A stretch of DNA of 33,885 bases from a virus (IMGVR_UViG_3300025917_000045:1-33885); one strand, 5' to 3'; shown: positions 5,821 through 21,973, numbered from the stretch's first letter. The notes: generated by a model from the sequence alone, not told the origin. Translations and numbers: made by a program.

Positions 5821-5837
5821 TTGATTTCCTGACGCTG
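5821..5837 (+). repeat. late-region junction element, copy A (before portal)
   Basis: TTGATTTCCTGACGCTG, identical to the copy at 14564-14580. Its first base is exactly 36 nt before the portal ATG. TTGATT resembles a -35 box, but the expected -10 position (CGAGGC/GAGGCT) is not promoter-like. Confidence 0.65.
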
Positions 5838-5856
5838 CCTTACCGAGGCTGCGTCA
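5830..5856 (+). promoter_or_regulatory. hairpin enclosing the portal Shine-Dalgarno
   Basis: TGACGC (5830-5835) pairs with GCGTCA (5851-5856) and GCCT (5837-5840) with AGGC (5846-5849), separated by a T-T mismatch, with loop TACCG. The only Shine-Dalgarno for the portal gene, GAGG at 5845-5848, is in the 3' arm, and the stem ends at the base before the ATG. Folding would hide the ribosome-binding site. Confidence 0.5.
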
Positions 5857-7503
5857 ATGAGCGATGACGTCCGCACGCTGATCGGTCACTGGGAAAAGCT
5901 CCACAGCGACCAAGCCAACTTTCGCATGCTGTGGAACACCATCGCCCAGTATGTGATGCCCGCTTGGGACAACTTCATCGGGTACTTCTCCGAAGGCATC
6001 ATCCGCACCACGCGGATCTTCGACTCCACCGGCATTACCGCGAATGAGCGCTTTGCCGCCGCCATGGAGCAGATGCTCACTCCCCGCACCCAGATGTGGC
6101 ACGACATCGTGCCGGCTGATGAGGCGCTCAAGGACGATGAGGAAGTGCAGGACTACTGCGGGCAGGTCCGCAAGATCCTCTTCGCCGCCCGCTACCGCCC
6201 AAGAGCCAATTACGCGAGCCAGATCGACGAGTGCTACATGCAGCTCGGGGCGTTCGGCAATGCCGCGATGCTCATCGATGAGGCGATGGGCAAGAACCTC
6301 ATCTACCGCTCTATCCCGCTGAACGAGGTCGTCTGGTCACTCGATGCGGCCGGGATGGTGGATCAGATCTACCGCAAGTTCCCCTTCACGGCTCACCAGT
6401 GCGCGCAGATGGCGAAATCCGATGGCTGGAAGCTACCGGACAAGATCAAGGAAGCACTGGACGAGAAGCCCTTTCACGAGTTCCAGATCCTGCACGTCGT
6501 GCGACCGAACGAGGAGCGTGTTGCAGGAGCGATTGGGCCCAAGGGCATGGCGTACAGCTCGTGGTACATCTGGCCCGATGAGAAGAGCGTTCTCAAGCAG
6601 GGAGGCTACCGGACATTCCCTTATGCCGTGGGCCGTTATCGCATGGCCCCTCGAGAGCATTACGGTCGCTCTCCCGCGGCGGTAGCCCTCCCTGCGATCC
6701 GCACCCTCAACGAGCAGAAGAAGACCGCGCTACGCGCCGGGCAGAAGGCGGTAGACCCACCGCTCTTGCTCGCCGATGAAGGCGCACTCACGCCGTTCAA
6801 CCTCCGGGCCGGTGCCCTCAACTACGGAATGTTGAGCGGCGATGGCACCCCGCTGGTTGTCCCGCTGGAAATCAAGAGCAACTTCGAGATTGGCAAGGAG
6901 CTGATGGACCTGGAAGCCCAGTCCATCAACGATGCGTTCCTTGTCACGCTGTTCCAGATCCTGGTGCAGAACCCGCAGATGACCGCCACCGAAGCGCTCA
7001 TCCGTGCCCAGGAGAAGGGCATGTTGATCGCTCCCGCCATGGGACGGCAGCAGTCCGAGTTCCTAGGACCCCAGATCGTGCGGGAAATTGACATCCTCTC
7101 CCGTGCCCGGATGTTGCCGCCACCGCCGGATCAGCTGGTGAAGTCCGAGCAGGGCCTGAAGATCGAGTACACCTCGCCGCTGTCCAAGCTCATGCGCGCC
7201 GAGGAAGCCCAGACGATCATGACGAGCGTCCAGGGTATCGGCTCCATGGCGAGCATTCTTCCCGGGATGCTGGACCTGATCGACGTGGATCAGACCGGCA
7301 AGGAGTTTCTAGAAGCCTCAGGCTTCCCCGGCAAGCTGATCCTGGATCCGGAGCAACTGGCCGCGAAGCGCCAGCAGCAGCAGGAGCAGGCCCAGACCCA
7401 GCAGATCGCGCAGGCCGCGCCCGGCGCCTCTCAAGCCGTGCTCAATCTCGCCAAGGCCCACCAGGCCATGAACCCGCAAGCCGGAGGCACCGGTGGAGCG
7501 TGA
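5857..7503 (+). CDS. portal protein (podoviral head-to-tail connector)
   Basis: A 548-residue connector of the T7 gp8 type ('head to tail connecting protein' family). Recognisable blocks are WNTIAQYVMPAWDNF near the N-terminus, RIFDSTGITANERFAAAMEQMLTP (about 49-72) and QLGAFGNAAMLIDE (about 127-140). Further on are MAPREHYGRSPAAVALPAIRTLNEQKKTALRA and the later QILVQNPQMTATEA with the crown-region helices. The C-terminus is Gln/Ala-rich (KRQQQQEQAQTQQIAQAA). A dodecamer forms the packaging vertex, receives TerL and later holds the tail adaptor encoded at 17533. Length is normal for the family. The start follows the junction element and hairpin; the next gene overlaps its 3' end by 11 nt. Confidence 0.93.
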   Translation: MSDDVRTLIGHWEKLHSDQANFRMLWNTIAQYVMPAWDNFIGYFSEGIIRTTRIFDSTGITANERFAAAMEQMLTPRTQMWHDIVPADEALKDDEEVQDYCGQVRKILFAARYRPRANYASQIDECYMQLGAFGNAAMLIDEAMGKNLIYRSIPLNEVVWSLDAAGMVDQIYRKFPFTAHQCAQMAKSDGWKLPDKIKEALDEKPFHEFQILHVVRPNEERVAGAIGPKGMAYSSWYIWPDEKSVLKQGGYRTFPYAVGRYRMAPREHYGRSPAAVALPAIRTLNEQKKTALRAGQKAVDPPLLLADEGALTPFNLRAGALNYGMLSGDGTPLVVPLEIKSNFEIGKELMDLEAQSINDAFLVTLFQILVQNPQMTATEALIRAQEKGMLIAPAMGRQQSEFLGPQIVREIDILSRARMLPPPPDQLVKSEQGLKIEYTSPLSKLMRAEEAQTIMTSVQGIGSMASILPGMLDLIDVDQTGKEFLEASGFPGKLILDPEQLAAKRQQQQEQAQTQQIAQAAPGASQAVLNLAKAHQAMNPQAGGTGGA

Positions 7504-8074
7504 GATCGTCAATTGGCCCCGGGACGAGGACGACGCCTACATCCAGCCGGAGAAGAACTCACCCCAGCTGGAAGTGACCATGAATCACAACCGGATGCGG
7601 TACGCGAATCAGTTCAACTTCGCAGACCTCTGGGGGTTCGGCAGTCCACACAACTACGACCATGACGGCAACTACGTCTGCGGGACATGCAATCAGCTGG
7701 AGAAGGGCGACTGCTTACTCATCGAGGATGTGGATGCCGATGACATCGACCCGAAAGCCAGCAGCTGCCGACACTACGAGCTCCAATGCGCGGGCGACCC
7801 CGAAACGCGCCTGAAGCGGACCACGAAGGCCGCGGCTCTCTTCGGGACTGCCAAGAACGGCGAGGGCTTTGGCTGCGAACGCTGCGGGTGGTATCGCGAG
7901 GGTAAATGGAAGGACAGCCTGGGCCGTGAGGGTTGGTGCGGTAACGGATACTTCACGACCGATGAGAAAGCCTGCTGCGCGCTAAATAGCGCCGAGACGA
8001 TCGAGGAATCCGAAGGAGCGGACGACGACGAGCCCACGATGGGTAAGTACATCCGCCTCCGCCGAGCCAAGTAG
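7493..8074 (+). CDS. cysteine-rich protein, likely metal-binding
   Basis: A 193-residue acidic protein starting with GTG at 7493, with GGAGG 5 nt upstream inside the portal gene. It has about twelve cysteines, in the order VCGTCNQLEKGDC (about 62-74), SSCRHYELQC (about 92-101), CERCGWY, WCGNG and KACC. The CxxC pairs suggest zinc or an iron-sulfur cluster. The surrounding sequence (NRMRYANQFNFADLWGFG) is aromatic. I do not recognise the family. Its place directly after the portal, in a head operon, suggests a virion or assembly factor; such a Cys-rich protein there is unusual. Confidence 0.7.
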   Translation: MEREIVNWPRDEDDAYIQPEKNSPQLEVTMNHNRMRYANQFNFADLWGFGSPHNYDHDGNYVCGTCNQLEKGDCLLIEDVDADDIDPKASSCRHYELQCAGDPETRLKRTTKAAALFGTAKNGEGFGCERCGWYREGKWKDSLGREGWCGNGYFTTDEKACCALNSAETIEESEGADDDEPTMGKYIRLRRAK

Positions 8075-11031
8075 TGGTCACGCTCCTCCACAACAAGTGG
8101 GTAGCGTTACCAGATGCGACCCTGCCGCCTCTGCGGATTACAACGGCCTCGATCCCTACGGGATCAATCGGCAACGCTTATAGCGCCTCACTGAGCGCCA
8201 CCGGCGGGCAGGCCCCCTACATCTGGTCGACACTCTCGATCGTTCCGGATACCGGGAACTGGCTCAGCCTATCCGCTGCGGGCGTATTCAGCGGGACACC
8301 CGGCACTCCGGAAACGGAAGTGGTGCTGGTCCAAGTGATCGACTCCCAGGGCACCAAGGCGAGTCGGTTCTTCACGCTGACCGTGACCGGCACTCCGCTA
8401 TCCATCACGAACTCCAATCCCTTGCCCAGCGCTACGGTCGGCACGGCCTACAGCGTCAGTATGGCGGCTACTGGGGGAATCCCGCCCTACAGCTGGACCG
8501 TTCTGTCCGATACGCCCAACACGGGCAACTGGTTCTCCATGACCTCGGGCGGATTGGGGACAGGAACACCGACCACCGCCGAGACTGAAAGCCTGGTGAT
8601 CCAGGTGCAGGATAGTGTCGGCTCTACTGCGTCCGCACCTTTCTCGCTCACGGTCAGTTCAGCTTCGGCAGTCTTGAGCTTCCCGCGCGTCATGTTGGTA
8701 GCGGTGGCTGGCGACCAAAGCTATGGCAGCAATGCCAGTACTGGCTATCCCGCCTGGACGACGGCGGCCGCAGGATCGGCGGCGAATACGGCGATCCAGA
8801 CAATCGGCGCCTACGACATCGCCATTATCACAGGGGTGTTCGAAGGCTGGGACACCTCCGGTGCGAGGGATCGCGAGAACCTGACACAGGCACTGCTCAA
8901 GAACACCACCTACACGGTGACCAAGAGCGCCACACGTCTGACCAGGGTGTTCTTCTACGAGATGATGTGCGCCACGATCTCGGGCAATCCTTACGCCCAG
9001 TGGCAAACCTTGGTCGATGCCAACAACTGGTATCTGTACGAGTCGGCCGGCGGAGTCGGGACGAAGACGCCCGCAGGCGGCGGACAGTCCTTCATCAACT
9101 ATTCAGCCGCCTGGCCCGGTGCGGTGGGCTCTGCGGGTGTCGGCGCATCCATCTGCGGTACAAACTACGGCACGACATCCAGTGGGAGCCCGACAGGGGT
9201 ACAAGGTCCTGCTCGCTCGTTCGGCAACTACGCCAGCATCAAGCTGCTCATGCGCGGCTACACCGGGGATTCTCGGTTCTCGTTCAATCCGCAGATGGGC
9301 GCGCCTTCCGCAGCGGGCATCTTCCTTGACCAATGCTTTGCGGCCCTGGATGGCGCCGGTACCGTTCCGGACTCATCACTCGACGGGCTCACGCTTTCTC
9401 CGGGCTCACAACAAGGCGGAGGATTTCCGGGTCTGGATACGCCGCAGTCACTCATCGCTCGCGGCAATCACAACATGTTCGACCAGATGCAGACGATGCT
9501 CGCGCTCGTCAATCCCGGGCGAACCTATTACAACTTCGGAAACTTCGGTCAGTACGCCAACAAGTATCAATTCGGTACGCGCACATTGACCGCAGGTCTG
9601 GAGAATACTCTTCACGGTGGCTTACTCGAGAACACGCTGGGGGCGGGCGGATCCTCCTGGGAATGCTTTCAGATCGGCAATACAAACACCGGCAACACGA
9701 CCTATGCTTCGGGATGGCCGAACTTGCTCGCCAACTATTATCAGGGAATGGACTTCTGTCTGGCGCCGAAACTGGTTGGTCTCGGGACCAAGCTGCCCTC
9801 GACTGACGGCCTACTAACGGCGTCGTGGCCTGTAGGAGCAGGCACGACGCTGACCACTGTGACGTCCGGCAGTGCGCTCGAATACCAGTTGATGCGTTAC
9901 GGACTGTGCACAACGCTGCTGGATGATGGCTATTTCGCGCCAGGCATTTCAAACTATGACTGGTCCAAGGTGCGCTGGTACGACGAGTATGGCGATGACT
10001 CGTTAGGACAGGTCAACGTCAGGCGCGGCTACTTAGGCACACCGCTCACCACCCGCCCCACATCACCCAATTGGAACGTGGGGACGATGGGCGTGTGGAT
10101 GCGTCAGTTCACCAATGGCATCGCGGTAGTCAATCCGCGCGGCAACGGTCCGCAGACCATCACGCTCCCGCGGCAGTATCAGGCGATCATCGGTTCACAG
10201 CAGCCGCTCATCAATAACGGTGCGCTGGTCTCGACTTTCACGATTCCTGATGGGGACGGACGGATATTCGTTCTTCCCTACTCGAGCTTCTCGCTCGTCT
10301 CTCTGATCCCCGGCACGACCAACGGTGGACTCGTCTCCGATCCCAATACGGGTCTCGCGTTTGCGGATGATGCGGGTGGCAATTCCGGAACTTGGGATGC
10401 GGCCAACGGCGTGGGCGTACTCAACTGGGCGGCAGGAGGAACCGCGGGATTCCGCTGGACCGGGATCGATCAGATCGCGAGTAAGGGCGGCGTTTACGTC
10501 AAGTACGACCTGATCCGTACGCAGACTCAGAACTCAAAGGAACTGAAGCTCTTCGGTAACGGCTATCCGACGAATTACTCCAACTTCACGATGGGCTGCA
10601 ACGCGGGTGGATACACCGGTACCGTCATGGGGCTGTCGTATTCGGATTCCGTTTCCGGTGGGGATATCAATACCCAGTTCTTCCTGAACCAAGCTCCGAC
10701 TCTCACGGGAGGCTCATCGTACTCTCGCACTCCGCACCCCACGATCAACAATCATGTCGGGGGTAACGAAGCTATCAACGGCACAGTCAATACCCTCGAA
10801 TGGTGGATAGTCCATAACACGGACGGAACACCCAACGGTGAGATGGCCTGCTGGTTGAATGGAGCGCTCATCTTCTGGGCAGTGAGTGTCTATAACTGTC
10901 GTACCGGAGGACAGGGATTCAACCGTATCGACATCGGCGGCTATGCCCCCACTCCTGGAACCATTGAGAAGTACAGCAAGGTTTACATCAATGTCGGCGC
11001 TTCGGCCCGTCCGACTGGAAGGGGAATATGA
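8074..11031 (+). CDS. large multidomain virion protein: Ig-like repeats plus putative TIM-barrel glycosidase
   Basis: A 985-residue protein starting with GTG at 8074 (1-nt overlap with the previous stop). Residues about 19-107 and 109-197 are two 'putative Ig' repeats (IGNAYSASLSATGGQAPYIW and VGTAYSVSMAATGGIPPYSW). Residues about 203-740 look like a glycosidase barrel: strands ending in FFYEMM (Glu296) and GIFLDQCF (Asp419), then the block MRYGLCTTLLDDGYFAP and WYDEYGDDSLG (Glu638). This last block is typical of hypothetical glycosyl hydrolases of the GHL15 kind. Residues about 750-985 form a beta-rich, lectin/lyase-like module (YSKVYINVG near the end). A capsule- or O-antigen-degrading role is inferred. 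It sits between portal and scaffold, not with the tail genes. Confidence 0.75.
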   Translation: MVTLLHNKWVALPDATLPPLRITTASIPTGSIGNAYSASLSATGGQAPYIWSTLSIVPDTGNWLSLSAAGVFSGTPGTPETEVVLVQVIDSQGTKASRFFTLTVTGTPLSITNSNPLPSATVGTAYSVSMAATGGIPPYSWTVLSDTPNTGNWFSMTSGGLGTGTPTTAETESLVIQVQDSVGSTASAPFSLTVSSASAVLSFPRVMLVAVAGDQSYGSNASTGYPAWTTAAAGSAANTAIQTIGAYDIAIITGVFEGWDTSGARDRENLTQALLKNTTYTVTKSATRLTRVFFYEMMCATISGNPYAQWQTLVDANNWYLYESAGGVGTKTPAGGGQSFINYSAAWPGAVGSAGVGASICGTNYGTTSSGSPTGVQGPARSFGNYASIKLLMRGYTGDSRFSFNPQMGAPSAAGIFLDQCFAALDGAGTVPDSSLDGLTLSPGSQQGGGFPGLDTPQSLIARGNHNMFDQMQTMLALVNPGRTYYNFGNFGQYANKYQFGTRTLTAGLENTLHGGLLENTLGAGGSSWECFQIGNTNTGNTTYASGWPNLLANYYQGMDFCLAPKLVGLGTKLPSTDGLLTASWPVGAGTTLTTVTSGSALEYQLMRYGLCTTLLDDGYFAPGISNYDWSKVRWYDEYGDDSLGQVNVRRGYLGTPLTTRPTSPNWNVGTMGVWMRQFTNGIAVVNPRGNGPQTITLPRQYQAIIGSQQPLINNGALVSTFTIPDGDGRIFVLPYSSFSLVSLIPGTTNGGLVSDPNTGLAFADDAGGNSGTWDAANGVGVLNWAAGGTAGFRWTGIDQIASKGGVYVKYDLIRTQTQNSKELKLFGNGYPTNYSNFTMGCNAGGYTGTVMGLSYSDSVSGGDINTQFFLNQAPTLTGGSSYSRTPHPTINNHVGGNEAINGTVNTLEWWIVHNTDGTPNGEMACWLNGALIFWAVSVYNCRTGGQGFNRIDIGGYAPTPGTIEKYSKVYINVGASARPTGRGI

Positions 11032-11726
11032 CGATCGCCATTGCCCAAGGATTTTCTGAAGAGGACACGTTCGGTAGTGGTATTCCTTTAGCCACGACAA
11101 ATAGCCTCAACACCTCCGCCACTGGCAGCTATTTCATTGTGGTCATCCGGGCGTACAGCCCATCCGCCAATACGATCACCGACAATTACAGCAATACCTG
11201 GAGCTTGCTCGGATCACAGGCTAACGGCAGCACGACAACTTATGTCTATCTTGGGGCCTCAGCAGGAGGCGGAACAGGAGCAGGCGGGACAGGTCACAAA
11301 CCAACGATCTCCAAGGCGCTAGGGGACACGGCCGCTGTTTGTTTCTTTGAAATCACGGGCGCTGCGACCTCCAGTGTTCAAGACGGTACACTGGTCTCCA
11401 ATCTCGATGCTTCCTCGCCGTTTGATCAGACGATCACGACGACCAATGCCACGGACCTCATCATCGGAATCGGCGCGAGCAATTCGGCTGCTAACCCGAC
11501 GACCTATACGCCTGGGGCAGGATTCTTGTTAGCCTCTACCAGCTCATTCACAAACGGGTCAAACGTGGACACGGTCGGGGTGATGTACCAGCGCGTTACC
11601 TCCACGGGAACCTATGGGCCGAACTTCACGACCTCATCGGGTACCAATGCGGCCGTGCTCACCTTTGCACTCAAGGAAGCAGGCGGCGGACCGGCCGACA
11701 CACTGATGGGGCAGATATGTCTGTGA
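11028..11726 (+). CDS. hypothetical beta-rich virion protein
   Basis: A 232-residue Thr/Ser/Gly/Ala-rich protein that starts on an ATGA overlap with the large glycosidase gene. Alternating strands (SYFIVVIRAYS, TTTYVYLGAS, TAAVCFFEITGA, DLIIGIGAS, AVLTFALKEA) suggest a jelly-roll or Ig-like sandwich. This composition is common in phage and bacterial proteins that coat or bind surfaces. No signal peptide. It is probably a partner or decoration protein of the upstream adhesin. The exact family is not recognised. Confidence 0.65.
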   Translation: MTIAIAQGFSEEDTFGSGIPLATTNSLNTSATGSYFIVVIRAYSPSANTITDNYSNTWSLLGSQANGSTTTYVYLGASAGGGTGAGGTGHKPTISKALGDTAAVCFFEITGAATSSVQDGTLVSNLDASSPFDQTITTTNATDLIIGIGASNSAANPTTYTPGAGFLLASTSSFTNGSNVDTVGVMYQRVTSTGTYGPNFTTSSGTNAAVLTFALKEAGGGPADTLMGQICL

Positions 11727-12058: not shown

Positions 12059-13200
12059 TGGCCACGATCCGTCGTCATCCGTTCAAGCTGGACCAGTATC
12101 GGCGACCCTATCTTCAGGTCGATCCGGTTCCCAACCTGCCCACGACTTTCTTCCCGAAGCTCAAGCCCTTCACCAGTGACAGCTTAAGCCAACCCGATCG
12201 TTTCTGGCCGAAGCCTCCGGTTCAGGACTACATCCAGAACAGTGCGCAGGCACTTGGTATTCCGGTCAAGGCGCGCGATCCCAATATTTTCCGCACACCG
12301 ACGCGCATCGAATACTTTCGCCCGCCCTATCACCAGATCGAGCAGACGCAAAGTCTGGTTCTCAAGACGCTGGTCGCATCCGTGGCGCCCTTCAAGCCAC
12401 CGAGCTTTCCGGAAGTCTATCGACGAGCGGACCGCGATTTCCTGCAGATGGAAGCGCTGTCGTATCTGCCCGGCCCGGTCATCGCGCCGTATATCCCGGT
12501 GGACTTCCCCACACCGATGCGCGCCAGGGCCACTCCGCAGGATTTCACGTTCTCCAGCACAGGCATTCAGCCCCTTGCGCCATTCAATCAGGTTGACTGG
12601 CCGATCCCGCTCAAGCTACGCCTGCATCACCAGGACTTCTGGTGGACGGGTATCACTACGCGAGGTATCCCGGCAGGCGTTGCAGCGCCCTTCCAACAGG
12701 ATGACTGGCCGATCCCGTTGCGTCCGAAGTGGGCGCAGGCCGAGAGCTACGACAGCCCTCACATTCTGCTGATCACGCCGATCCTGCGACCCTTCTCCCA
12801 ACAGGAGTGGGTGAACCCGACCCGGTTCAAGCCGATTGCGATCGACTGGCCGTGGTCAGGACCGACAACCCGTGGAATCCCGCCGGTCCCGGCGCCCTCC
12901 GGCCCCTTTGCCGCGGTCACTCTGGAAGGTTATGCCATCGGGATGGATCAGCTGGAACTGCACTGGACGGCATCTTTGGGCGCACACGGCTATCGCATCT
13001 ACATCAACGGGGTTCCGCAACCCACGGTGCTGTTCGATCGGATTGCCGTAATCACAGGCCTTGCGATCGACACCGAGTACGACTTCAATGTGGTCTGCGT
13101 GAACGCCTTCAATCAGGATGCGTCCGACCTATCCAATACGGTCATGTTCCGTCGCGATTCACGCGAAATCGGCACCTATCACACCAAACCTTGGAACTAA
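12058..13200 (+). CDS. repeat-containing virion protein with C-terminal fibronectin III domain
   Basis: A 380-residue Pro/Trp/Phe-rich protein starting on a TAATG overlap. The first 280 residues consist of degenerate repeats of about 40-45 residues built around aromatic-proline motifs: VDFPTPMRARATPQDF, VDWPIPLKLRLHHQDFWW, DDWPIPLRPKWAQ and EWVNPTRFKP, with GITTRGIPAG and GPTTRGIPP between them. Residues about 290-365 are a fibronectin III-like domain (LELHWTASLGAHGYRIYINGV ... TEYDFNVVCVNAFNQDASDLSNTV). The repeats suggest an extended fibre or linker and the terminal domain a surface adhesion module. It may form a complex with the products of 8074-12058. Family not named with confidence. Confidence 0.65.
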   Translation: MATIRRHPFKLDQYRRPYLQVDPVPNLPTTFFPKLKPFTSDSLSQPDRFWPKPPVQDYIQNSAQALGIPVKARDPNIFRTPTRIEYFRPPYHQIEQTQSLVLKTLVASVAPFKPPSFPEVYRRADRDFLQMEALSYLPGPVIAPYIPVDFPTPMRARATPQDFTFSSTGIQPLAPFNQVDWPIPLKLRLHHQDFWWTGITTRGIPAGVAAPFQQDDWPIPLRPKWAQAESYDSPHILLITPILRPFSQQEWVNPTRFKPIAIDWPWSGPTTRGIPPVPAPSGPFAAVTLEGYAIGMDQLELHWTASLGAHGYRIYINGVPQPTVLFDRIAVITGLAIDTEYDFNVVCVNAFNQDASDLSNTVMFRRDSREIGTYHTKPWN

Positions 13201-13203
13201 GTC

Positions 13204-13717: not shown

Positions 13718-14567
13718 TGGCAACCAAGGCGGAAATGAAGGCGGCGTGGGCGGCGCTTCCACCGGCGGAGCCCTTCCAGGTGCCAATCAACAAGCTTCGG
13801 GCTGGTGGGATACGGTCAAAGATCCCGAAGTCAAAACCTGGCTCGGGAGCAAGAAATACCCGGACGCCGAAAGCGCGCTGAAGTCGCATTGGAGCCTCGA
13901 GCGCCTGATGGGCGCCGACAAGGCCGGTCGCACGGTCATGCTCCCCAAGGACGAGAACGACGCGGAAGGCTGGAAGGCGCTATCCGCCAAGCTGGGCGTT
14001 CCTGATTCCGCCGATGGCTACAAACTCCCGATGCCGGAAGGCGCGGATGAGGGATTCTCCAAGACCGCATCCCAATGGTTCCACGAGGCCGGTGTGCCAC
14101 CGCGAGCGGCCAACAAGATCGCCGAAAAGTGGAACGAGTACATCTCAGAGCAGGTGAAAGCCGGTGAGGCCGCCGAGCGCGCCGAGTCTCAGAAGCAGAT
14201 GGGTGCTCTGGAAAAGGAGTGGGGTGGAGAATTCCCCGCCAAGCGAGAGCTGGCCCAGCGGGGCTACCGGGAATTCGCCAAGCAGTTCGGGCTTGACGAC
14301 AAGGCCGCTCTCGAGCGCGCCGAGTCGGTGCTGGGTGCTGCGAACCTGACCAAGTTCTTTGCCGGACTCGGTGCGATGAATTCAGAGTCAGGCTTTGCCG
14401 GATCCGATGGCAAGGGTGGATTCTCAGGCGTCACCAAGCAGCAGGCGATGGATCAGATCCGTCAGATTCAGGCGGACCGCATGAGTGGCAAGATCAACGA
14501 TCACGCCTGGCGTACCGAATATGCCGCGAGGGTTGAGAAGTTGGGCGCCATCGCGTACAGCAGTTGA
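13689..14567 (+). CDS. capsid scaffolding protein (putative)
   Basis: A 292-residue acidic, Ala/Gly/Gln-rich protein. A low-complexity N-terminus (Gly/Asn/Ser) is followed by WWDTVKDPEVKTWLGSKKYPDAESALKSHWSLERLMGADKAGRTVMLPKDEND and LGVPDSADGYKLPMPEG, a pattern common in podoviral scaffolds and head-assembly proteins. Then come long helices (about 130-220) and a C-terminal helix-turn-helix-like basic end (QQAMDQIRQIQADRMSGKINDHAWRTEY) that could bind capsid protein. The ATG at 13689 has TTGGAG 5 nt upstream and is preferred over GTG at 13683. It lies directly before the major capsid gene. Its TGA stop is inside the junction element. Confidence 0.8.
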   Translation: MTTAAAVLSSGNQGGNEGGVGGASTGGALPGANQQASGWWDTVKDPEVKTWLGSKKYPDAESALKSHWSLERLMGADKAGRTVMLPKDENDAEGWKALSAKLGVPDSADGYKLPMPEGADEGFSKTASQWFHEAGVPPRAANKIAEKWNEYISEQVKAGEAAERAESQKQMGALEKEWGGEFPAKRELAQRGYREFAKQFGLDDKAALERAESVLGAANLTKFFAGLGAMNSESGFAGSDGKGGFSGVTKQQAMDQIRQIQADRMSGKINDHAWRTEYAARVEKLGAIAYSS

Positions 14568-14580
14568 TTTCCTGACGCTG
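14564..14580 (+). repeat. late-region junction element, copy B (before capsid gene)
   Basis: TTGATTTCCTGACGCTG, identical to copy A. The scaffold stop codon TGA is bases 3-4 onward of the element (14565-14567). Unlike the other copies there is no start codon 36 nt downstream; the capsid gene begins 173 nt later after a structured leader. Nearby CATAGG at 14586 is a possible but poor -10. Confidence 0.65.
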
Positions 14581-14589
14581 CTCTGCATA

Positions 14590-14624
14590 GGGTCCCATCA
14601 CGAAGGCGGACACGGGTGGGACCC
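14590..14624 (+). promoter_or_regulatory. capsid leader stem-loop 1
   Basis: GGGTCCCA (14590-14597) and TGGGACCC (14617-14624) form a perfect 8-bp GC-rich stem around a 19-nt loop. No T-run follows, so it is more likely an mRNA-protecting or processing structure than a terminator. It lies in the 169-nt gap before the capsid gene. Confidence 0.5.
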
Positions 14625-14707
14625 ACTCCCCGCTGACTGGCAAAGCGCCCCTCGCAGCCCAGAGGTGAAAAGAGGCTAGAAGCGGCCCCTCACGGACACG
14701 CCCTTCG

Positions 14708-14723
14708 AAAGTGATTCCACTTT
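14708..14723 (+). promoter_or_regulatory. capsid leader stem-loop 2, next to the ribosome-binding site
   Basis: AAAGTG-ATTC-CACTTT is a perfect 6-bp hairpin ending 1 nt before the TGGAGGA Shine-Dalgarno region of the capsid gene. Its weak AT-rich stem should not block initiation and may define a 5' processed end or present the ribosome-binding site. Confidence 0.4.
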
Positions 14724-14736
14724 TGGAGGACTCTGC

Positions 14737-15642
14737 GTGTCTGTCAACATCACGACTTTCTACGTTCAGGAATACGCCCGGATCCTGAACGAACTCGTCC
14801 AGCAGAAAGATTCGCGTCTGCGCAAGGCCTGCACCGAGCAGCGCTACGAAGGCAAGGCCGGCTCCCCGGTCGAGCAGGTGGGCGCGATCAATATGCAGTC
14901 GGTCACGTCGCGCTATCAGCCGATGGGCCGCGTGGACGCGCCGACCGATCGCCGGTGGGTCTACCCCTCCGACTTCGATCTGCCGCAGTTGCTCGACAGC
15001 TTCGACAAGCTGCGCCTGCTGGTCGATCCGAAGTCGAAGTTCGTACAGAACGCGCATTTCGCCGCCAATCGTCAGATGGATGACCTCATCATCTCGGCGT
15101 TGTTCGGCACCTCCAAGACCGGCGAGACCGGTCAGAACAGCATCTCTCTGCCCTCCACGCAGGTGGTCTCGGTCCAGCAGGGCGCCGCCGCCCCGACCGG
15201 ACTCACGGTGGCGAAGCTTCGTGAAGCGCTGCGCATCCTGCGCGCGAACGAGGCGATTCCCGACAATGATCAGCCCGCAGATGTGTGGTGCGTCGCAGGC
15301 GCGACACAGCTCGACAACCTCCTGGCCGAAGTGCAGGTGGTCTCGAGCGACTTCAACGGCGGCCAGCCCGTTCTCCAGGAAGGTCGCATCCAACGCTTCC
15401 TCGGCGTGAATTTCATCCACTCAGAGCGCCTGCCGACCGGCACCGACGATCAGTCCGGCACCTCCACCAAGGTGGGCTTCTGGCAGAAAGAGGGTATGCA
15501 CCTGGGTCTGTGGAACGACATCACGACCGATGTGGCCCAGCGCAAGGACCTGCAGGGCCTTCCCTGGCAGGCCTACGTGTACATGACCGCTGGCGCGACC
15601 CGCATCGAAGAGAAGCGTGTCGTCCAAATCTGGTGCCGATAA
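14737..15642 (+). CDS. major capsid protein
   Basis: A 301-residue capsid protein with HK97-like fold features of the podoviral/BPP-1 type. N-terminal helix FYVQEYARILNELVQQKDSRLRKAC is followed by a loop and Gly/Ala-rich VEQVGAINMQ. Then come PTDRRWVYPSDFDLPQLLDSFDKLRLLVDPKSKFVQNAHFAANRQMDDLIISALFG, the peripheral region TVAKLREALRILRANEA, and the C-terminal strands VGFWQKEGMHLGLWNDITTDVAQRKDLQG. About 415 copies would build a T=7 shell. It has GTG as start with an excellent GGAGGA 6 nt upstream, fitting very high expression. It is preceded by the scaffold gene and followed by a cement-like gene. Confidence 0.9.
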   Translation: MSVNITTFYVQEYARILNELVQQKDSRLRKACTEQRYEGKAGSPVEQVGAINMQSVTSRYQPMGRVDAPTDRRWVYPSDFDLPQLLDSFDKLRLLVDPKSKFVQNAHFAANRQMDDLIISALFGTSKTGETGQNSISLPSTQVVSVQQGAAAPTGLTVAKLREALRILRANEAIPDNDQPADVWCVAGATQLDNLLAEVQVVSSDFNGGQPVLQEGRIQRFLGVNFIHSERLPTGTDDQSGTSTKVGFWQKEGMHLGLWNDITTDVAQRKDLQGLPWQAYVYMTAGATRIEEKRVVQIWCR

Positions 15643-15652
15643 GGGGTAATGC

Positions 15653-16171
15653 ATGGGCGTCGTCAACGTCAACTCGACTCAGATCACCAACGACCTGGCC
15701 ACTCCGGCTGTCCTGAACAACTCGTTTATTGCGGGCGCCAACATCAAGGAGATGGTGGATGTCTGCACGATGGGAGCTTCGGACTCCAACAACTCCACCT
15801 ACCGGTTCTTCCGCATCCCCTCGAATGCGCGCATCAGCGACATCGAGGTGATGAACGATGCGAACACCTCCGGCACGTCCTACAAGTGCGGGGTGTTGCT
15901 CACCAACGGTGGGAGCACCGTGGTCTCCAGCTCCGATGTGATCTTCATCCCCGCGGGCACTTCCATGGCCTCGGCACGCAGCACCTGGACGAGCTTGTAC
16001 TTCCCTGCCATCACGAGCGGCTCGGCCTCGGCTGCGAATATCGGCAAGCGCGTCTGGGAGCTGCTGGGACTGACCGCCGATCCGAATGCGATCTATGACG
16101 TCACGGTCACGGCCGTCACCGCGGGATCTGCGGGCGGCAGTTTGGCTCTGAAACTCTCCTACGTGGTGTAA
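15653..16171 (+). CDS. capsid cement/decoration protein candidate (Bbp16-like position)
   Basis: A 172-residue beta-rich protein without charge clusters. Blocks are VNSTQITNDLATPAVLNNSFIAGANIKEMVDVCTMGASDSNNSTYRFFRIPSNARI, then FIPAGTSMASARSTWTSLYFPAITSG and TVTAVTAGSAGGSLALKLSYVV. It begins 10 nt after the capsid stop, with AAGGGG 6 nt upstream. In BPP-1 the gene next to the capsid gene encodes a beta-sandwich cement protein; the position and composition agree, but sequence identity was not tested. It would bind the capsid exterior and strengthen it. Confidence 0.7.
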   Translation: MGVVNVNSTQITNDLATPAVLNNSFIAGANIKEMVDVCTMGASDSNNSTYRFFRIPSNARISDIEVMNDANTSGTSYKCGVLLTNGGSTVVSSSDVIFIPAGTSMASARSTWTSLYFPAITSGSASAANIGKRVWELLGLTADPNAIYDVTVTAVTAGSAGGSLALKLSYVV

Positions 16172-16174
16172 CAC

Positions 16175-16681
16175 ATGGCTCGATACTCCTACTCGGTCAA
16201 CTCGGTCACGCCCACCGCGACCGCCGACACCACGAACCTCGTGGACTCGACGTATCTCGCGTACCTGCAGGGTGGCAACTCCACCATGCGGCTGAACGTG
16301 TCCGAGATCTACCTGGGCGGTGAGGCCGCATCCTCGTCCTCGCCGACTGTCATCCTCTTCGGCCGGTCTTCCACGGTCGGAACCGGTACGGCGACCGGTG
16401 GCTTCTCCGCCGTGCTGGACGGCTCCAACACCGCACCCGGCACCGTGGCTCGTGTCGGCAACGCCTGCGCGACCACAAAGCCCCAGCGCTCGGCCACTTT
16501 GGGTCACCTGCTCACCCTCTCCTTCAACGCCTACGGCGGCATCGTGCGCTGGGTCGCGCGACCGGGTGAGGAAATCAGCATCGTGGGCAACACCGCCTCC
16601 TTGGGCGAGTGCACCTTGTCGGCCTTCACCGGCGGCACACCCGGTGCGATGTCCTCGCACATCCTCTACGAGGTCGTGTAA
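16175..16681 (+). CDS. second decoration-like virion protein
   Basis: A 168-residue Ser/Thr/Gly-rich protein (MARYSYSVNSVTPTATADTTN...), with strands RLNVSEIYLGGEA, PTVILFGRSST and LTLSFNAYGGIVRWVARPGEEISIVGN. The same opening 'VSEIYLGGEAASSSSPTVILFGR' pattern occurs in phage capsid-associated beta-sandwich proteins. It starts 3 nt after the cement candidate stop and is followed at once by another small gene. It is probably a minor head protein; a beta-barrel of decoration type is inferred. Confidence 0.65.
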   Translation: MARYSYSVNSVTPTATADTTNLVDSTYLAYLQGGNSTMRLNVSEIYLGGEAASSSSPTVILFGRSSTVGTGTATGGFSAVLDGSNTAPGTVARVGNACATTKPQRSATLGHLLTLSFNAYGGIVRWVARPGEEISIVGNTASLGECTLSAFTGGTPGAMSSHILYEVV

Positions 16682-16903
16682 GTGGCCGCGATCAGCTACC
16701 TGATCGCCCCCGGCGGGACACTGGAGACGGTGACCCTCGGAACGGCTGCGCCGACCTCAGCCGGGATCGAGCTCCGGGTCGATCAGACCACGACCACCAT
16801 CACAGACAAAGGTTCAACACGGGCTCTGAAGCGCGGCGAAATCCAGGCGCTGCTACGCATTATCGAAGAAGCCCTCATCCGCGACACGCGCCCGAATCAG
16901 TAG
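16682..16903 (+). CDS. small virion-region protein
   Basis: A 73-residue protein with GTG start immediately after the preceding TAA. A beta-rich N-terminal half (YLIAPGGTLETVTLGTAAPTSAGIELRVDQTTTTITD) is joined to a helix (LKRGEIQALLRIIEEALIRD). It is conserved-looking in composition but no family is recognised. Located among decoration genes, so it may be a head completion or chaperone protein. Confidence 0.55.
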   Translation: MAAISYLIAPGGTLETVTLGTAAPTSAGIELRVDQTTTTITDKGSTRALKRGEIQALLRIIEEALIRDTRPNQ

Positions 16904-16910
16904 GACTGCC

Positions 16911-17531
16911 ATGCCCACCAACAATCTCGTCGGCCCAGTTTCTTACGCAGACGGTGTCGCCGCCAGTCAGAACCGCGCCGGACGCCTCGGTGACATGATC
17001 GTCTCCGAGCTGAGCCCCCGGTACTACGAGCAGGTCTCCCGCGGCAACTGCTACATGGCAGCGAGCCAGGCCGTCGCCACCACCACGGTGGGCCTCGCCA
17101 CGACCTACACCGGACTGTGCCTGTCCAATCCGCTCAACTCGGGCAAGAATCTCGCGATCGTCCTGGCCTCCGTCGCCCAGTCGGTGATCCAGGCAACGCA
17201 GGTGGAAGGCTATCTGATTGCCACCGGTTCGAGCGCCACCGCCAATGTCACGCACACCACGCCCGGAACGGTGCAGACCGCCCTCGTGGGGGCCACGGCG
17301 AACAACGCTGTGGCGAAAGTCGACACCGCCGCGACGCTCCCTGTAGCGCCGCTGTACTCGCTCGCGTTGACCAATACCGCCTCTGCTACGACCAACTCCC
17401 CCGGAGTGACCGTGGATATCGGAGGTGCGATCGTGCTGGCGCCCGGAGCCTATGCGTGCTTCGTGACCCCGACCCAGGCTTCCGTTGCAGGATTGTGGTT
17501 CGGCTTCGCATGGGCCGAGATCCCGATCTGA
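16911..17531 (+). CDS. hypothetical structural protein of the head module
   Basis: A 206-residue Ala/Thr/Val-rich protein. N-terminus: PVSYADGVAASQNRAGRLGDMIVSELSPRYYEQVSRGNCYMAASQAVATTTVGLATTYTGLCLSNP; the rest is beta-rich (NLAIVLASVAQSVI, VDIGGAIVLAPGAYACFV). The strand pattern resembles bacteriophage head fibre or decoration proteins. AGGA lies 5 nt before the ATG. It precedes the tail adaptor gene, so it is the last gene of the head block. Function unproven. Confidence 0.6.
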   Translation: MPTNNLVGPVSYADGVAASQNRAGRLGDMIVSELSPRYYEQVSRGNCYMAASQAVATTTVGLATTYTGLCLSNPLNSGKNLAIVLASVAQSVIQATQVEGYLIATGSSATANVTHTTPGTVQTALVGATANNAVAKVDTAATLPVAPLYSLALTNTASATTNSPGVTVDIGGAIVLAPGAYACFVTPTQASVAGLWFGFAWAEIPI

Positions 17532-17532
17532 T

Positions 17533-18183
17533 GTGAGTTCTCAGACCGAGATTTGCAATTCCGCGCTCACCCTGCTGGGCGCGGATACCATCAATGCCAT
17601 CACGGACCAGACCACCAACGCACGGGCGTTGAACGCGGTTTGGAACCTCGAGCGCGATTCCGAGCTGCGCAAGAACATCTGGAAGTTCTCCATCACGCGC
17701 GCCAATCTCCCGGCGCTCGCCGATGCTCCCGTCAACGGTCCCTACACGGCACAGTTCGAACTGCCTTCCGGGTGCCTGCGGGTGCTGCAGGTGGGCAACT
17801 CCAACTTCGACTGGCCGGGCGTCGACCTGTCGGACTTCCGTTCAGGACCCACAAACGATGACTACATGATCGAAGGGGGCATGGTGCTGACCAACCTCGC
17901 ACCGCCCATCTCGATCCGCTACATCCGGCAGGTCACGGACACGACCCTGTGGGATCCGTGCTTCTGCACAGCCTTTGCCTCACGTATCGCCCGCCGCGCC
18001 TGCTTTCGCATCACACAATCCTCGGCCAAGGAAAAGGACTGCATCGCCGAGTATCTCACCGCGATAAAGGATGGGATCCGGGCGAACGCATTCGAGACTC
18101 CGCCGACGATCCAGGCGGATGACACCTGGGTGGCAACCCGTCCAGTGGGGGCCGGTGGGGCCGCGTGGATTCGCTACGGGTAG
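17533..18183 (+). CDS. tail adaptor protein, T7 gp11-like (tail tubular protein A)
   Basis: A 216-residue adaptor that joins the portal to the nozzle. The opening SSQTEICNSALTLLGAD and LNAVWNLERDSELRKNIWKFSITRANLPAL, followed by QFELPSGCLRVLQVG and LAPPISIRYIRQVTD, are the hallmark blocks of podoviral tail tubular protein A. The start is GTG at 17533, overlapping nothing but lying 1 nt after the preceding TGA; longer in-frame extension to 17485 runs back over the previous gene and is rejected. The stop TAG is 1 nt before the junction element that introduces the nozzle gene. Confidence 0.88.
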   Translation: MSSQTEICNSALTLLGADTINAITDQTTNARALNAVWNLERDSELRKNIWKFSITRANLPALADAPVNGPYTAQFELPSGCLRVLQVGNSNFDWPGVDLSDFRSGPTNDDYMIEGGMVLTNLAPPISIRYIRQVTDTTLWDPCFCTAFASRIARRACFRITQSSAKEKDCIAEYLTAIKDGIRANAFETPPTIQADDTWVATRPVGAGGAAWIRYG

Positions 18184-18184
18184 C

Positions 18185-18201
18185 TTGAAAACCTGACGCT
18201 G
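18185..18201 (+). repeat. late-region junction element, copy D (before nozzle gene)
   Basis: TTGAAAACCTGACGCTG matches the other copies at 14 of 17 positions, with AAA in place of TTT at positions 5-7. Its first base is exactly 36 nt before the nozzle ATG at 18221. No clear Shine-Dalgarno precedes that ATG. Confidence 0.6.
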
Positions 18202-18220
18202 GATTCCCGATCGTAGCCGG

Positions 18221-20767
18221 ATGGGCAAAAACGCACCGGCGCTATCGAACTTCAACGCAGGCGAGCTTTCTCCCGACTACGCCGCCCGTGTCGACAACGA
18301 GAAATACGCGGTTGGCTGCTCCACCCTTCAGAACTACATCCCCCGGGTGCAAGGCGGCGCCCGCCGCCGTCCCGGCTCCCGGTATGTAGAGCCGGTCAAG
18401 GACTCGACCCAGCGCACCTGGCTGCGCAAGTTCATCTTCTCCCAGAGCCAGGCCTATCAGGTGGAGTTCGGGGTGGGCTACTGCCGGTTCTATACGAACC
18501 ACGGGCAGGTGCAAGCCAGTGGAGTGGCGTACGAGATATCCACGCCCTACACGGCGCAGATGCTCACCAATCCCGACAACACCTGTGGTCTGCAACTGGA
18601 ACAGTCCGGCGATGTGATCTATATCGCCTGCGCCAGTTACTGGCCGATGCAGCTCACCCGCTTAGGTCCCACCAATTGGACGCTGACGCCCTTCGCGCCA
18701 CCGGATGGGCCGTTCCTCGACATCAACACCTCGAACACCCCGGCACTCTATGTGACGCCCATCGCAGGCTCACCCAATCAGGTGATCTGCTACGCCACCG
18801 CTGCCATCTTTGATCCGACCGATGTGGCCACGGCAAGCTCTCCCGGCCGGCTGGTCCGGATCAACGTCCAATACTTCAACGTCCCGACGTGGACCAACAA
18901 CGTCGCCTATTCCACGAACGATCTGACGCGCTTCAACGGCAGTACGTACAAAGCGCTGAACAGCGCTACTTCGGGACCCAATCCTCCCGTCCATACGAGC
19001 GGGATCGGGTGGGATGGCAAAGGCGCCGTCCAGTGGCTCTACATGGACTCCGGCTACGGAATAGGGCAGGTCACCGGTTACACGAGCCCGACCCAGGTCA
19101 CCCTCACTCTGTCCTCGTACGCGGGTCAGACCGGCAAGACCAACGGCAACCAGTATTACAACTTCCCTCAGGCCACGGTCGGCGCACCCTTCGCCATCAC
19201 CGCCATCTCCCAGGCCAATCCCGCCGTGGTCACTGCGCCCGGCCATACCCTGGCGGTGGGAGATCCGGTCTACCTCACGAACGTAGGCGGGATGACGCAG
19301 ATCTCCGAGCAGTCGTATGTCGTGACCGCAACCAGTGGAGGAAATTTCACACTGGGTACAGTGGATGCCACGGGATACTCCGCCTACACCTCCGGCGGGA
19401 GCGCGATCAAGAACGCATCCCTCAACTGGCAACTGGGCGCCTGGGGGCAGGGACGCAGCGGATACACGGCGTCCTTTCCGACGTGCGTCAGCTTCTTCTC
19501 GGATCGGCTGTTCTGGGCCAACGGCATCAAATGGTGGGGGTCGGCGCCGGGTCAGTACACGAGTCACACCGAGGATCTGTTCTCACAGGTGACCGCTGCC
19601 TGTGCAGTGGCCGGGACGATCGCCGCCCAGGATGTGGATGCGATCACCTGGCTCTCACAGACCACGCGGTTTCTCCTGATCGGCACCAAGGGCGGGGAGT
19701 TTGCCTTAGGGCCCATCGTCACCACCCAGGCATTGGGTCCGGATAACGTCGCGGTGCTGCGGCAGTCGAAGTGGCGCTCGCGCTCGATCCGGGCCGAGAT
19801 TATCGGCACCTCCAACTTCTACATCCAGGCGGGGGGGAAGAAGGTCCTCGCCCAGGACTACAACTTTTATCTCGACGTGTTCGATTCGACCAACCAGACG
19901 AGGTTGGCGAACCACATCGCAGGCTACACGGTCACCTCCGGCATCGTGGATATGTCCTGGCACCAGGAGCCCTACGAAACGCTCTGGGCCGTCCGGAACG
20001 ATGGCGTGCTCATCGGCTACGTGTTCGACCGGCCCGATCAGGTCACCGGCTGGCATGAGCATACCTTGGGAGCCACGACCGCAGGACCCGCGGTCGTCGA
20101 GTGCGTCTCGGTGATCCCGGCTCCGGACGGCACACGCGATGAGGTGTGGATGGTCGTCAACCGCACCATCAACGGTCAGACGTTGCGCTCCGTGGAGTAT
20201 CTCGAGAAGGACTTCGAGACCGGGGATGCCCAGAACACGATGTGCTATCTCGACATGTCCGGTGTCTACAACGGCGCACCGACCACCACGGTCTCCATCC
20301 CCTGGCTGATCGGGGAGACGGTGAGCGTTCTGCGCGATGGAGGAGGCCACCCCGATTGTGTGGTGGACAACACAGGCCACATCACCCTCGACAACGCGGG
20401 CAGTGTGATTCAGGTTGGATTGAAGTGCCCGTCTGACCTCGTGACCATGGACATCGAAGGTGGCGCGGATATCGGCACCGCTCAGGGGAAGACCAAGCGC
20501 GCAAGCCATGCAGTGGTGCGATTCAAGAACACCATGGGGGCCTACATCGGGCTTGCGGATGGGAAGATTGATCCGATCCAGTCGAACCTGAGTTCCACCC
20601 CTCTAGACAGTCCTCCGCCGCTCCTGACCGGCGACAGCCCGCGCATCTCTTTGCCGGGCGACTACGGCACCTCCTGCAAGATCCGCGTCTATCAGCCGGG
20701 ACCGTTCGCCACCGAGATTCTCGGCATCTTCCCGGTGATCACGGTTCAGGAGCCATCCCCGCCGTGA
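18221..20767 (+). CDS. tail nozzle protein, T7 gp12-like (tail tubular protein B)
   Basis: An 848-residue protein. The N-terminus (SNFNAGELSPDYAARVDNEKYAVGCSTLQNYIPRVQGGARRRPGSRYV) is the signature of podoviral nozzle proteins, and FIFSQSQAYQVEFGVGYCRFYTNHGQV follows. Inserted modules are a CBM5/12-like segment at about 224-270 (PTWTNNVAYSTNDLTRFNGSTYKAL) and an E1 FCCH-like segment at about 323-393 (ITAISQANPAVVTAPGHTLAVGDPVYLTNVGGM). Later blocks (SFFSDRLFWAN, DVDAITWLSQT, GTKGGEFALG, VTGWHEHTLGA) are conserved platform regions. It forms the tube below the adaptor. The start at 18221 has no good Shine-Dalgarno and lies behind a junction element. Confidence 0.9.
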   Translation: MGKNAPALSNFNAGELSPDYAARVDNEKYAVGCSTLQNYIPRVQGGARRRPGSRYVEPVKDSTQRTWLRKFIFSQSQAYQVEFGVGYCRFYTNHGQVQASGVAYEISTPYTAQMLTNPDNTCGLQLEQSGDVIYIACASYWPMQLTRLGPTNWTLTPFAPPDGPFLDINTSNTPALYVTPIAGSPNQVICYATAAIFDPTDVATASSPGRLVRINVQYFNVPTWTNNVAYSTNDLTRFNGSTYKALNSATSGPNPPVHTSGIGWDGKGAVQWLYMDSGYGIGQVTGYTSPTQVTLTLSSYAGQTGKTNGNQYYNFPQATVGAPFAITAISQANPAVVTAPGHTLAVGDPVYLTNVGGMTQISEQSYVVTATSGGNFTLGTVDATGYSAYTSGGSAIKNASLNWQLGAWGQGRSGYTASFPTCVSFFSDRLFWANGIKWWGSAPGQYTSHTEDLFSQVTAACAVAGTIAAQDVDAITWLSQTTRFLLIGTKGGEFALGPIVTTQALGPDNVAVLRQSKWRSRSIRAEIIGTSNFYIQAGGKKVLAQDYNFYLDVFDSTNQTRLANHIAGYTVTSGIVDMSWHQEPYETLWAVRNDGVLIGYVFDRPDQVTGWHEHTLGATTAGPAVVECVSVIPAPDGTRDEVWMVVNRTINGQTLRSVEYLEKDFETGDAQNTMCYLDMSGVYNGAPTTTVSIPWLIGETVSVLRDGGGHPDCVVDNTGHITLDNAGSVIQVGLKCPSDLVTMDIEGGADIGTAQGKTKRASHAVVRFKNTMGAYIGLADGKIDPIQSNLSSTPLDSPPPLLTGDSPRISLPGDYGTSCKIRVYQPGPFATEILGIFPVITVQEPSPP

Positions 20768-21207
20768 ACGTGATTCCGTTCGAGCCCGAACATATTCAGC
20801 GTCTGGAGCTCCAGGACGCCCAGCAGTACATGGTCTCGTACATCTGTGTGGAGTACCTGAAAGCGCTTCAGGCCGTAGGCCCTTCGGCCTCCGCCGAGGT
20901 CGACGGCCGGATCATCGCCAGCGCGGGAGTTGCCTTCCAGGGATTTCAAATGGGCGTGCTCTGGGCCTTCGTGGCGAAAGACGCTGGCCGGCACTTCGTG
21001 AAGCTGGATCGCTGTGTGCGACGGCTGCTCTCGATCACGAGCCTCAAACGTATCGAGGCCACGACAGAAGTGTCCTTCCATCAGGGCTGTCGCTGGCTGC
21101 AACTTTTGGGATTTGAGAACGAAGGCCGGATGAGAGCCTATGGCCCCAACGGGGAAGATCACTATCGCTTTGCGAGGATTTCATGGCCGCTGCCATCCCT
21201 TTCGTGA
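20764..21207 (+). CDS. GNAT-like acetyltransferase-fold protein (T7 gp13 position)
   Basis: A 147-residue protein with a GTG start overlapping the nozzle stop (GTGA). IPFEPEHIQRLELQ, then GRIIASAGVAFQGFQMGVLWAFVAKDAGRHFVKLDRCVRRLLS and FHQGCRWLQLLGFENEGRMRAYGPNGEDHYRFARI follow the order of a GNAT fold, ending in the 'a.r.Ye.LGF...g' type block. The Q/RxxGxG/A acetyl-CoA loop is not clearly intact, so enzymatic activity is uncertain. Similar GNAT-like proteins are commonly encoded between nozzle and internal virion genes in T7-like phages. The next gene overlaps by 25 nt. Confidence 0.7.
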   Translation: MNVIPFEPEHIQRLELQDAQQYMVSYICVEYLKALQAVGPSASAEVDGRIIASAGVAFQGFQMGVLWAFVAKDAGRHFVKLDRCVRRLLSITSLKRIEATTEVSFHQGCRWLQLLGFENEGRMRAYGPNGEDHYRFARISWPLPSLS

Positions 21208-21605
21208 TGCTCGCGGGTTCCGTCATCTCCGGAACCCAGAAAGCCAATGCCGCCGAATCCAATGCGCAGGTATTGGGATTCGAGGCCAAGACCGCCGCTG
21301 CGCAGGGATATTCCGCAGAAGCCCAGCAGCGCCGCAAGACCGCGGCGATGGAAGGTTCACAGATCGCCGCCGCCGGACAGGCCGGGGCGGGGTTTGGCGG
21401 ATCCACCGGCCGGGCGATCACGCAGAACGTCCGCAACGCCACCGAGGACGCGCTAGCGATCCGCTATAAGGCGCAACTCGCGAAATGGAGCTATGGACTG
21501 CAGTCGGCCAACGTCGCCGCTGAGGGTCAATCGGAAGCGAATTCAGACTATCTCAAAGCCGGTGGTGCCTTCCTCCGGGGCTACAGCGGCAACTATCTGG
21601 GTTGA
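21183..21605 (+). CDS. internal virion/ejection protein, T7 gp14-like
   Basis: A 140-residue Ala/Gln-rich protein with an N-terminal hydrophobic segment (IPFVMLAGSVISGTQ) and long helices (NAAESNAQVLGFEAKTAAAQGYSAEAQQRRKTAAMEGSQIAAAGQAGAGFGGSTGRAI). This is typical of the small ejection protein that inserts into the outer membrane in T7-like phages. It precedes two further ejection-protein genes, the gp14-gp15-gp16 order. The stop TGA lies inside the junction element at 21602. Assignment rests on position and composition. Confidence 0.7.
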   Translation: MAAAIPFVMLAGSVISGTQKANAAESNAQVLGFEAKTAAAQGYSAEAQQRRKTAAMEGSQIAAAGQAGAGFGGSTGRAITQNVRNATEDALAIRYKAQLAKWSYGLQSANVAAEGQSEANSDYLKAGGAFLRGYSGNYLG

Positions 21606-21618
21606 TTTCCTGACTCTG
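21602..21618 (+). repeat. late-region junction element, copy C
   Basis: TTGATTTCCTGACTCTG, one or two bases from copies A and B, with a second CTGACGCTG 15 nt further on. The first base is exactly 36 nt before the ATG at 21638. No Shine-Dalgarno is visible before that ATG. Confidence 0.65.
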
Positions 21619-21637
21619 GCTATCTGACGCTGACATC

Positions 21638-21973
21638 ATGAGCGGGGTTGTCAACAACATATCCAATATGGGGCGCCGGGCTGACTTCGGCGTCGGTAAG
21701 GCACTGTCGCATATCGATCCCATAGCCTCCGCCATCATGAAGGCGGACATAGGGACCCAGAACGCCGTACTCGGTAAGCCGGGCAACAACCGTCGCTTCT
21801 ACGGAGAAGGGCCTGTCGCCCCACCCACCGCACCCACCCAGGATACCGCGGCGAATGCGGCCCTTCAGCAGCAGGACATGCTCCGCCGCCGTCGCGGCGT
21901 GTTCGCGAACATCTTTGCCGGGGGCAGCGCACCGGCTCCCGCCACAGCGACCAAGAGCACCCTGGGGTCATAA
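21638..21973 (+). CDS. hypothetical virion-module protein
   Basis: A 111-residue protein with a helical N-terminus (VVNNISNMGRRADFGVGKALSHIDPIASAIMKADIG), a Pro-rich linker (APPTAPTQDTAANAALQQQDMLRRRRG) and a Gly/Ala/Thr-rich end. The RRRRG stretch could contact DNA. It is encoded between ejection-protein genes and preceded by the junction element. The 'APPTAPTQDTAANAALQQQD-MLRRRRG' region looks like those of small virion proteins in other podoviruses, but no name can be given. Confidence 0.6.
   Translation: MSGVVNNISNMGRRADFGVGKALSHIDPIASAIMKADIGTQNAVLGKPGNNRRFYGEGPVAPPTAPTQDTAANAALQQQDMLRRRRGVFANIFAGGSAPAPATATKSTLGS

Follow-up and report, generated by a model that had tools for sequence, protein, structure and literature searches.

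The window, as we call the whole 33,885-nt stretch of viral DNA analysed, carries on its plus strand a late region with genes for the portal protein, the major capsid protein and the tail nozzle and with a 111-aa gene. At four junctions of this region lies a 17-nt element, TTGATTTCCTGACGCTG or a close copy of it, and between the copy nearest to the capsid gene and the capsid start codon a long leader is predicted (Table 1). A 985-aa ORF (8074-11031) located between the portal and capsid modules had no PHROG match, and a 380-aa late gene contains a 33-nt direct duplication (12577-12609 and 12685-12717, 88%).

Table 1. Coordinates of putative promoter parts, leader RNA elements and late genes in the window
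Feature	Position	Strand	Remarks
17-nt element, portal promoter: -35-type hexamer TTGATT plus extension	5821..5837	+	L007/L155 likewise have it 36 nt from the portal ATG
-10-like GAGGCT, 18 bp after TTGATT	5845..5850	+	predicted +1 = A of ATG 5857
Portal gene, predicted leaderless, first of unit	5857..7503	+	PHROG 332 head-tail adaptor, 2.6e-131
17-nt element, capsid promoter -35 region	14564..14580	+	0-mismatch copy; aligned capsid promoters of relatives
Capsid promoter -10, TAGGGT	14588..14593	+	predicted +1 about A14600
Capsid 5' leader, predicted, about 137 nt	14600..14736	+	
Conserved structured RNA: three hairpin domains plus closing P6	14605..14707	+	covariance models R1/R2; no Rfam match
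P6 stem, GAAG/CUUC	14679..14682 / 14703..14706	+	
Alternative hairpin CUUCGAAAGUG-AUUC-CACUUUUGGAG	14703..14728	+	covers most of Shine-Dalgarno GGAGG (14725-14729); excludes P6
Major capsid gene, GTG start	14737..15642	+	PHROG 3437, 7.5e-70
17-nt element TTGAAAACCTGACGCTG, nozzle promoter	18185..18201	+	orthologous sites in L149/L155 and L150
-10-like GATCGT	18209..18214	+	predicted +1 = A of ATG 18221
Tail nozzle / tubular B gene	18221..20767	+	PHROG 376, 1.2e-156
17-nt element TTGATTTCCTGACTCTG, 111-aa gene promoter	21602..21618	+	ortholog at L155:15435 before 112-aa gene
-10-like GACGCT	21626..21631	+	predicted +1 = A of ATG 21638
111-aa gene, heads last unit	21638..21973	+	internal virion genes downstream

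The 17-nt element and its -10 partner in the window

When up to 3 mismatches were allowed, four matches to the 17-mer were detected in the window, all on the plus strand, at 5821 and 14564 (0 mismatches), 21602 (1) and 18185 (3). By chance a mean of 0.05 matches and a maximum of 1 is expected (100 dinucleotide shuffles), and the reversed pattern gave 0 matches in the whole record, which bears out the four-copy repeat in the late region described in an earlier note on this DNA. As that note had also stated, three of the copies are separated from an ATG by exactly 36 nt, at the portal (5821 to 5857), nozzle (18185 to 18221) and 111-aa genes (21602 to 21638), and the fourth precedes the long capsid leader. 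We counted 173 nt from this fourth copy to the capsid GTG (14564 to 14737). Its placement of the copies at or after stop codons holds at all four junctions: each 17-mer adjoins the preceding gene's stop codon or shares bases with it (TAG 5818-5820, TGA 14565-14567, TAG 18181-18183, TGA 21603-21605), the copy at 18185 starting one base past the stop. The nozzle and 111-aa genes are without an evident Shine-Dalgarno sequence, and a GAGG close to the portal ATG could serve as a weak one.

The earlier note had seen no -10 consensus, and here it is contradicted, as a hexamer xAnnnT lies 18 bp downstream of TTGATT or TTGAAA in all four window copies and recurs at fixed spacing in relatives. The best -10 among the four belongs to the capsid promoter, TTGATT-18-TAGGGT. 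Within a -10 hexamer, A-11 and T-7 are the most important bases; both are kept at the portal, nozzle and 111-aa sites, where -12 is G in each case. Counting 7 nt from the hexamer, the predicted +1 coincides with the A of the ATG in these three genes. A published signature of leaderless genes is TANNNT some 12 bp upstream of the start codon (PMC3160421); at all three sites predicted to be leaderless the -10-like hexamer begins exactly at -12, with G and not T as its first base. TTGxxx and xAnnnT at 16-18 bp conform to a sigma70 promoter, the window sites are not near the TTGACA/TATAAT consensus, and a plain sigma70 promoter scan detected none of the four.

Conservation of the bipartite signal in relatives

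A near-identity DNA search of phage records gave no match, and relatives were gathered by portal, nozzle and capsid protein searches. The bare 17-mer was rejected as a cross-genome probe, its scan of viral contigs having given mostly unrelated contigs. The element in relatives reads cTTG[CA][AT]TGTGCCCG, and it is located 36 nt from the ATG at the portal, nozzle and 112-aa genes of L007/L155 and at the nozzle gene of L150. Its absence from the matching junctions of close relatives, which according to the earlier note would speak against a function, was therefore not what was found. At about two dozen capsid loci (24) the promoter conforms to TTG[AC]xx-17/18-xAnnnT (or TAnnnT) directly before the leader RNA, and its ortholog in L022 has an exact TTGACA. 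The spacing to xAnnnT is 17 bp in the wider family and 18 bp in the branch to which the window belongs.

The complete pattern TTG..-17/18-[GT]AnnnT-N5..7-start occurred at 11 late-strand and 0 antisense sites in 320 kb, two of the 11 being L149 copies of L155 sites; as the pattern demanded the -10, this count is not an independent test of it. Orthologs, a matrix trained on capsid promoters and a spacing test using the -35 side alone examine the -10 more independently, with few sites from the window branch. The weight matrix was built from capsid promoters alone and left -12 almost unconstrained. At a cut-off of at least 13 bits it gave 19 non-capsid matches in 352 kb, of which 2 were antisense and 17 late-strand, with promoters recognized at portal, tail and other junctions. 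A start codon was present at the predicted +0 to +3 in 11 of the 17 late-strand matches, compared with 4.6% of random positions. Since the nozzle and 111-aa sites, the two weakest of the window, are below the threshold of this wide-family matrix, their assignment rests on identity to the other copies, spacing and orthologs. When sites were picked by the -35 side (GTGCC core, capsid copies included), 40 of the 49 on the late strand had xAnnnT exactly 17 bp away, and each of the remaining spacings between 10 and 25 bp was seen in 0-2; on the antisense strand the figure was 3 of 29.

Among 28 tabulated non-capsid sites the predicted 5'UTR measures 0-3 nt in 25, that is, in all 25 having a start codon. 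The codon at the expected start behind the same late promoter reads ATA or ATC at L012:9188, L014:5176 and L208:1401; these may be non-AUG leaderless starts or genes with later start codons. Across the family the first base of the -10-like hexamer is G in 10 cases, C in 9, T in 7 and A in 2. The promoters stand before the portal gene or a preceding gene of about 85 aa, a 203-aa tail gene or the nozzle gene, a 104-aa gene that lies ahead of the protease/scaffold gene, and the 111/112-aa gene, so that different branches have them at the head of the same modules. No such promoter was found before the leader RNA of L156 (L156:4592-4692), suggesting that RNA and promoter are separable. L156 and a more distant group, L171-L202, are the capsid relatives without the element, and the promoter class is therefore narrower than the leader RNA.

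A structured RNA in the capsid leader

Two covariance models, R1 built on 19 sequences and R2 on 45, detect the leader RNA once per record and always just before the capsid gene in 13 of 16 whole records (e.g., L164:6389-6489). Its fold comprises the hairpins P1, P2 and P3 and the closing stem GAAG...CUUC (P6), and P1 and the closing stem have a common internal loop, GG-ACAA/ACAC-G opposite C. Changes on both sides were seen in 24 of 29 pairs, and covariation, in an alignment that was fitted to the model, was 0.507 versus 0.145 ± 0.011 for shuffled and at most 0.105 for slid pairs; in the unfitted MAFFT alignment A2, 20 of 29 pairs were doubly changed (0.253 versus 0.114). Compensatory changes and a fixed gene association, by which structured cis-regulatory RNAs are recognized, are thus both present. 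The thermodynamic stability of the whole leader is ordinary (z -0.07) and was dropped as a signal. Searching Rfam 15 gave no match at E≤1 for the window; in five relatives the sole match, to a snoRNA, was weak (E 0.16), attributable to chance and located outside the leader. No description of capsid-leader RNA motifs was found in literature searches. Judged by sequence comparison, the leader of the capsid gene holds a conserved structured RNA that has apparently escaped description and probably represents a new RNA family.

Downstream, pairing of CUUCG(A/G)A... with the Shine-Dalgarno strand is predicted for most leaders of the close group. The Shine-Dalgarno hairpin of the window has a z of -4.0. 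Between leaders, own arms pair with a score of 7.68 versus 7.18 for swapped arms, the best of 2000 shuffles reaching 7.63. The CUUC at 14703-14706 can pair with GAAG at 14679-14682 or with GGAG at 14725-14728, and this mutually exclusive geometry is conserved in relatives. As CUUC cannot join both helices, a translational switch is likely, and anything that stabilizes one of the folds would probably turn capsid translation on or off. The leader, in which an on/off geometry is visible, is a strong candidate new RNA family.

Late transcription model and alternative explanations

Phage structural operons are usually assumed to depend on Shine-Dalgarno translation. From the evidence of the related genomes we propose, with a probability of roughly 80%, that each copy of the element forms the -35 part of a bipartite late promoter of sigma70 type and that leaderless mRNAs are made at three of the units; the first option of the earlier note, a phage-specific late promoter with a -35 box and a message starting from the ATG, appears well supported by the relatives. 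The late operon would be cut into four units, headed by the portal, capsid, nozzle and 111-aa genes. Comparison of the genomes shows a TTGxxx hexamer, the adjoining extension and, downstream, xAnnnT, spaced by 17 bp in the wider family and by 18 bp in the window branch. Judging from this geometry, RNA polymerase would begin on the first base of the ATG, its A, in the window branch and 0-3 nt before the ATG in the wider family. Three of the four units are predicted to open with a leaderless mRNA translated without a Shine-Dalgarno sequence, and the capsid promoter would start a leader of about 137 nt with a conserved fold. A literature search found no description of late promoters of this kind.

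That the copies are chance repeats or functionless recombination junctions, like the boundary sequences of lambdoid phages, hardly deserves belief, for although they sit exactly at gene-module boundaries, 0.05 copies are expected and both the fixed distance and the -10 partner are conserved across relatives. The location of the 17-mer between stop and start codons and the nozzle and 111-aa genes without evident Shine-Dalgarno sequences would also suit an RNA processing site, as the earlier note considered, or a ribosome standby site in read-through mRNA at operon junctions. Such an element at the RNA level would not explain an xAnnnT partner at fixed spacing across unconserved intervening sequence, nor the perfect -35 TTGACA of L022, nor the same -10 geometry at a capsid copy 173 nt from its start codon, and it is considered very unlikely. 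Real promoters could instead start transcription several bases upstream or downstream, with translation by weak Shine-Dalgarno sequences or coupling and no leaderless initiation. Offsets in the wider family do spread over 0-3 nt without a single value, and a junction gene might also depend on translational coupling in read-through mRNA; however, 0-3 nt is too short for a Shine-Dalgarno sequence, all 25 sites cluster within this range, and their start codons are mostly ATG, the codon favoured on leaderless mRNA. This explanation therefore seems unlikely, if less so than the others discussed here.

Which factor reads the extension was approached by comparing sites within and between genomes. The 17-mers of one genome shared an identity of 0.83, those found at one junction in different genomes 0.64, and on the -10 side the relation was reversed (0.40 versus 0.76), in a small sample of 13 and 8 comparisons from three genomes. 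A 17-mer uniform within a genome and different between genomes is the pattern expected from a trans-acting factor reading the extension, and such a factor, bound just downstream of the -35, would probably set promoter strength. The same co-variation, the conserved extension past the -35 hexamer and the failure of a canonical sigma70 scan to see the sites might indicate that a phage-coded RNA polymerase or sigma factor, and not the host sigma70 holoenzyme, reads these promoters. Sigma region 4 (Sigma70_r4) was found neither in the window nor in 10 relatives, with positive controls working; a T7-type RNA polymerase was not matched in a phage search whose control also gave no signal, nor was it among the PHROG matches of the window; and the -35/-10 geometry is sigma70-like. 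Reading by a phage-coded polymerase or sigma factor is considered improbable. The working model is host sigma70 assisted by a phage activator, which is favoured over a phage sigma factor. No activator or sigma gene was identified among the phage genes examined. In relatives, two conserved small proteins, A5 and A6, are encoded immediately ahead of the small terminase gene (L214:1452-1763 and 1549-2109). An 83-aa ORF of the window (3350-3601) resembles a distant A5 relative (hhalign 91.7%), and the predicted structure of A6 consists mainly of two helices (moderate confidence). No DNA-binding domain was recognized, and they are candidates that we do not claim as the activator.

Leaderless phage transcripts are known from Thermus phages such as P23-45. 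The leaderless lambda cI transcript is likewise read from a 5'-terminal AUG (PMC9031893), and unlike in either of these cases, such mRNAs are predicted here for several structural operons across a podovirus family, from a shared late promoter. Promoters of bacterial leaderless genes (PMC3160421, PMC12340547) resemble the phage sites in having a -10-like hexamer at -12 and no need of a Shine-Dalgarno sequence, whereas the phage sites add a conserved -35 and extension, often have G or C at -12, and head late units alongside one long-leader unit. T4 middle promoters, which depend on sigma appropriation by MotA/AsiA (PMC7403470), also combine a phage-specific sequence near -30 with a sigma70 -10, but in the phages described here the TTG core of the -35 is retained. 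A start-associated sequence, another suggestion of the earlier note, fits in position only: the SAS of cluster K mycobacteriophages (PMC3203893) is likewise a short repeat in the same orientation directly before gene starts, but it reads GGGATAGGAGCCC, a sequence that the window motif does not share, comes from different phages and has no described -35/-10 geometry. The podoviruses HTVC010P, BcepC6B and Stenotrophomonas phage BUCT708 have homologous portal and nozzle proteins and a similar gene order, HTVC010P also a homologous capsid protein, and unlike the window phage their records gave no match to the leader RNA models.

More tentatively, this podovirus family might express its structural genes from a late promoter of their own, which host polymerase reads together with a phage factor and which yields leaderless mRNAs for portal, tail and internal proteins, with the capsid gene alone carrying a new class of regulatory RNA that gates its Shine-Dalgarno sequence. 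Capsid synthesis would then depend on canonical 30S initiation, and synthesis of the other proteins on leaderless initiation. A family with late promoters starting at the AUG and the capsid as sole leadered exception would make it simple to test by what means phages adjust protein ratios and whether late infection favours 70S leaderless initiation, and the promoter consensus enables annotation of late units in these uncultured phages. Elsewhere in the window, two copies of GGATT(A/T)ATCGTCCATGA (198-227 and 611-640) flank a leftward ORF near the left end and resemble repressor operators, and a GtrB-like glycosyltransferase is encoded on the opposite strand (31397-32392, minus), possibly a gene for host-surface modification.
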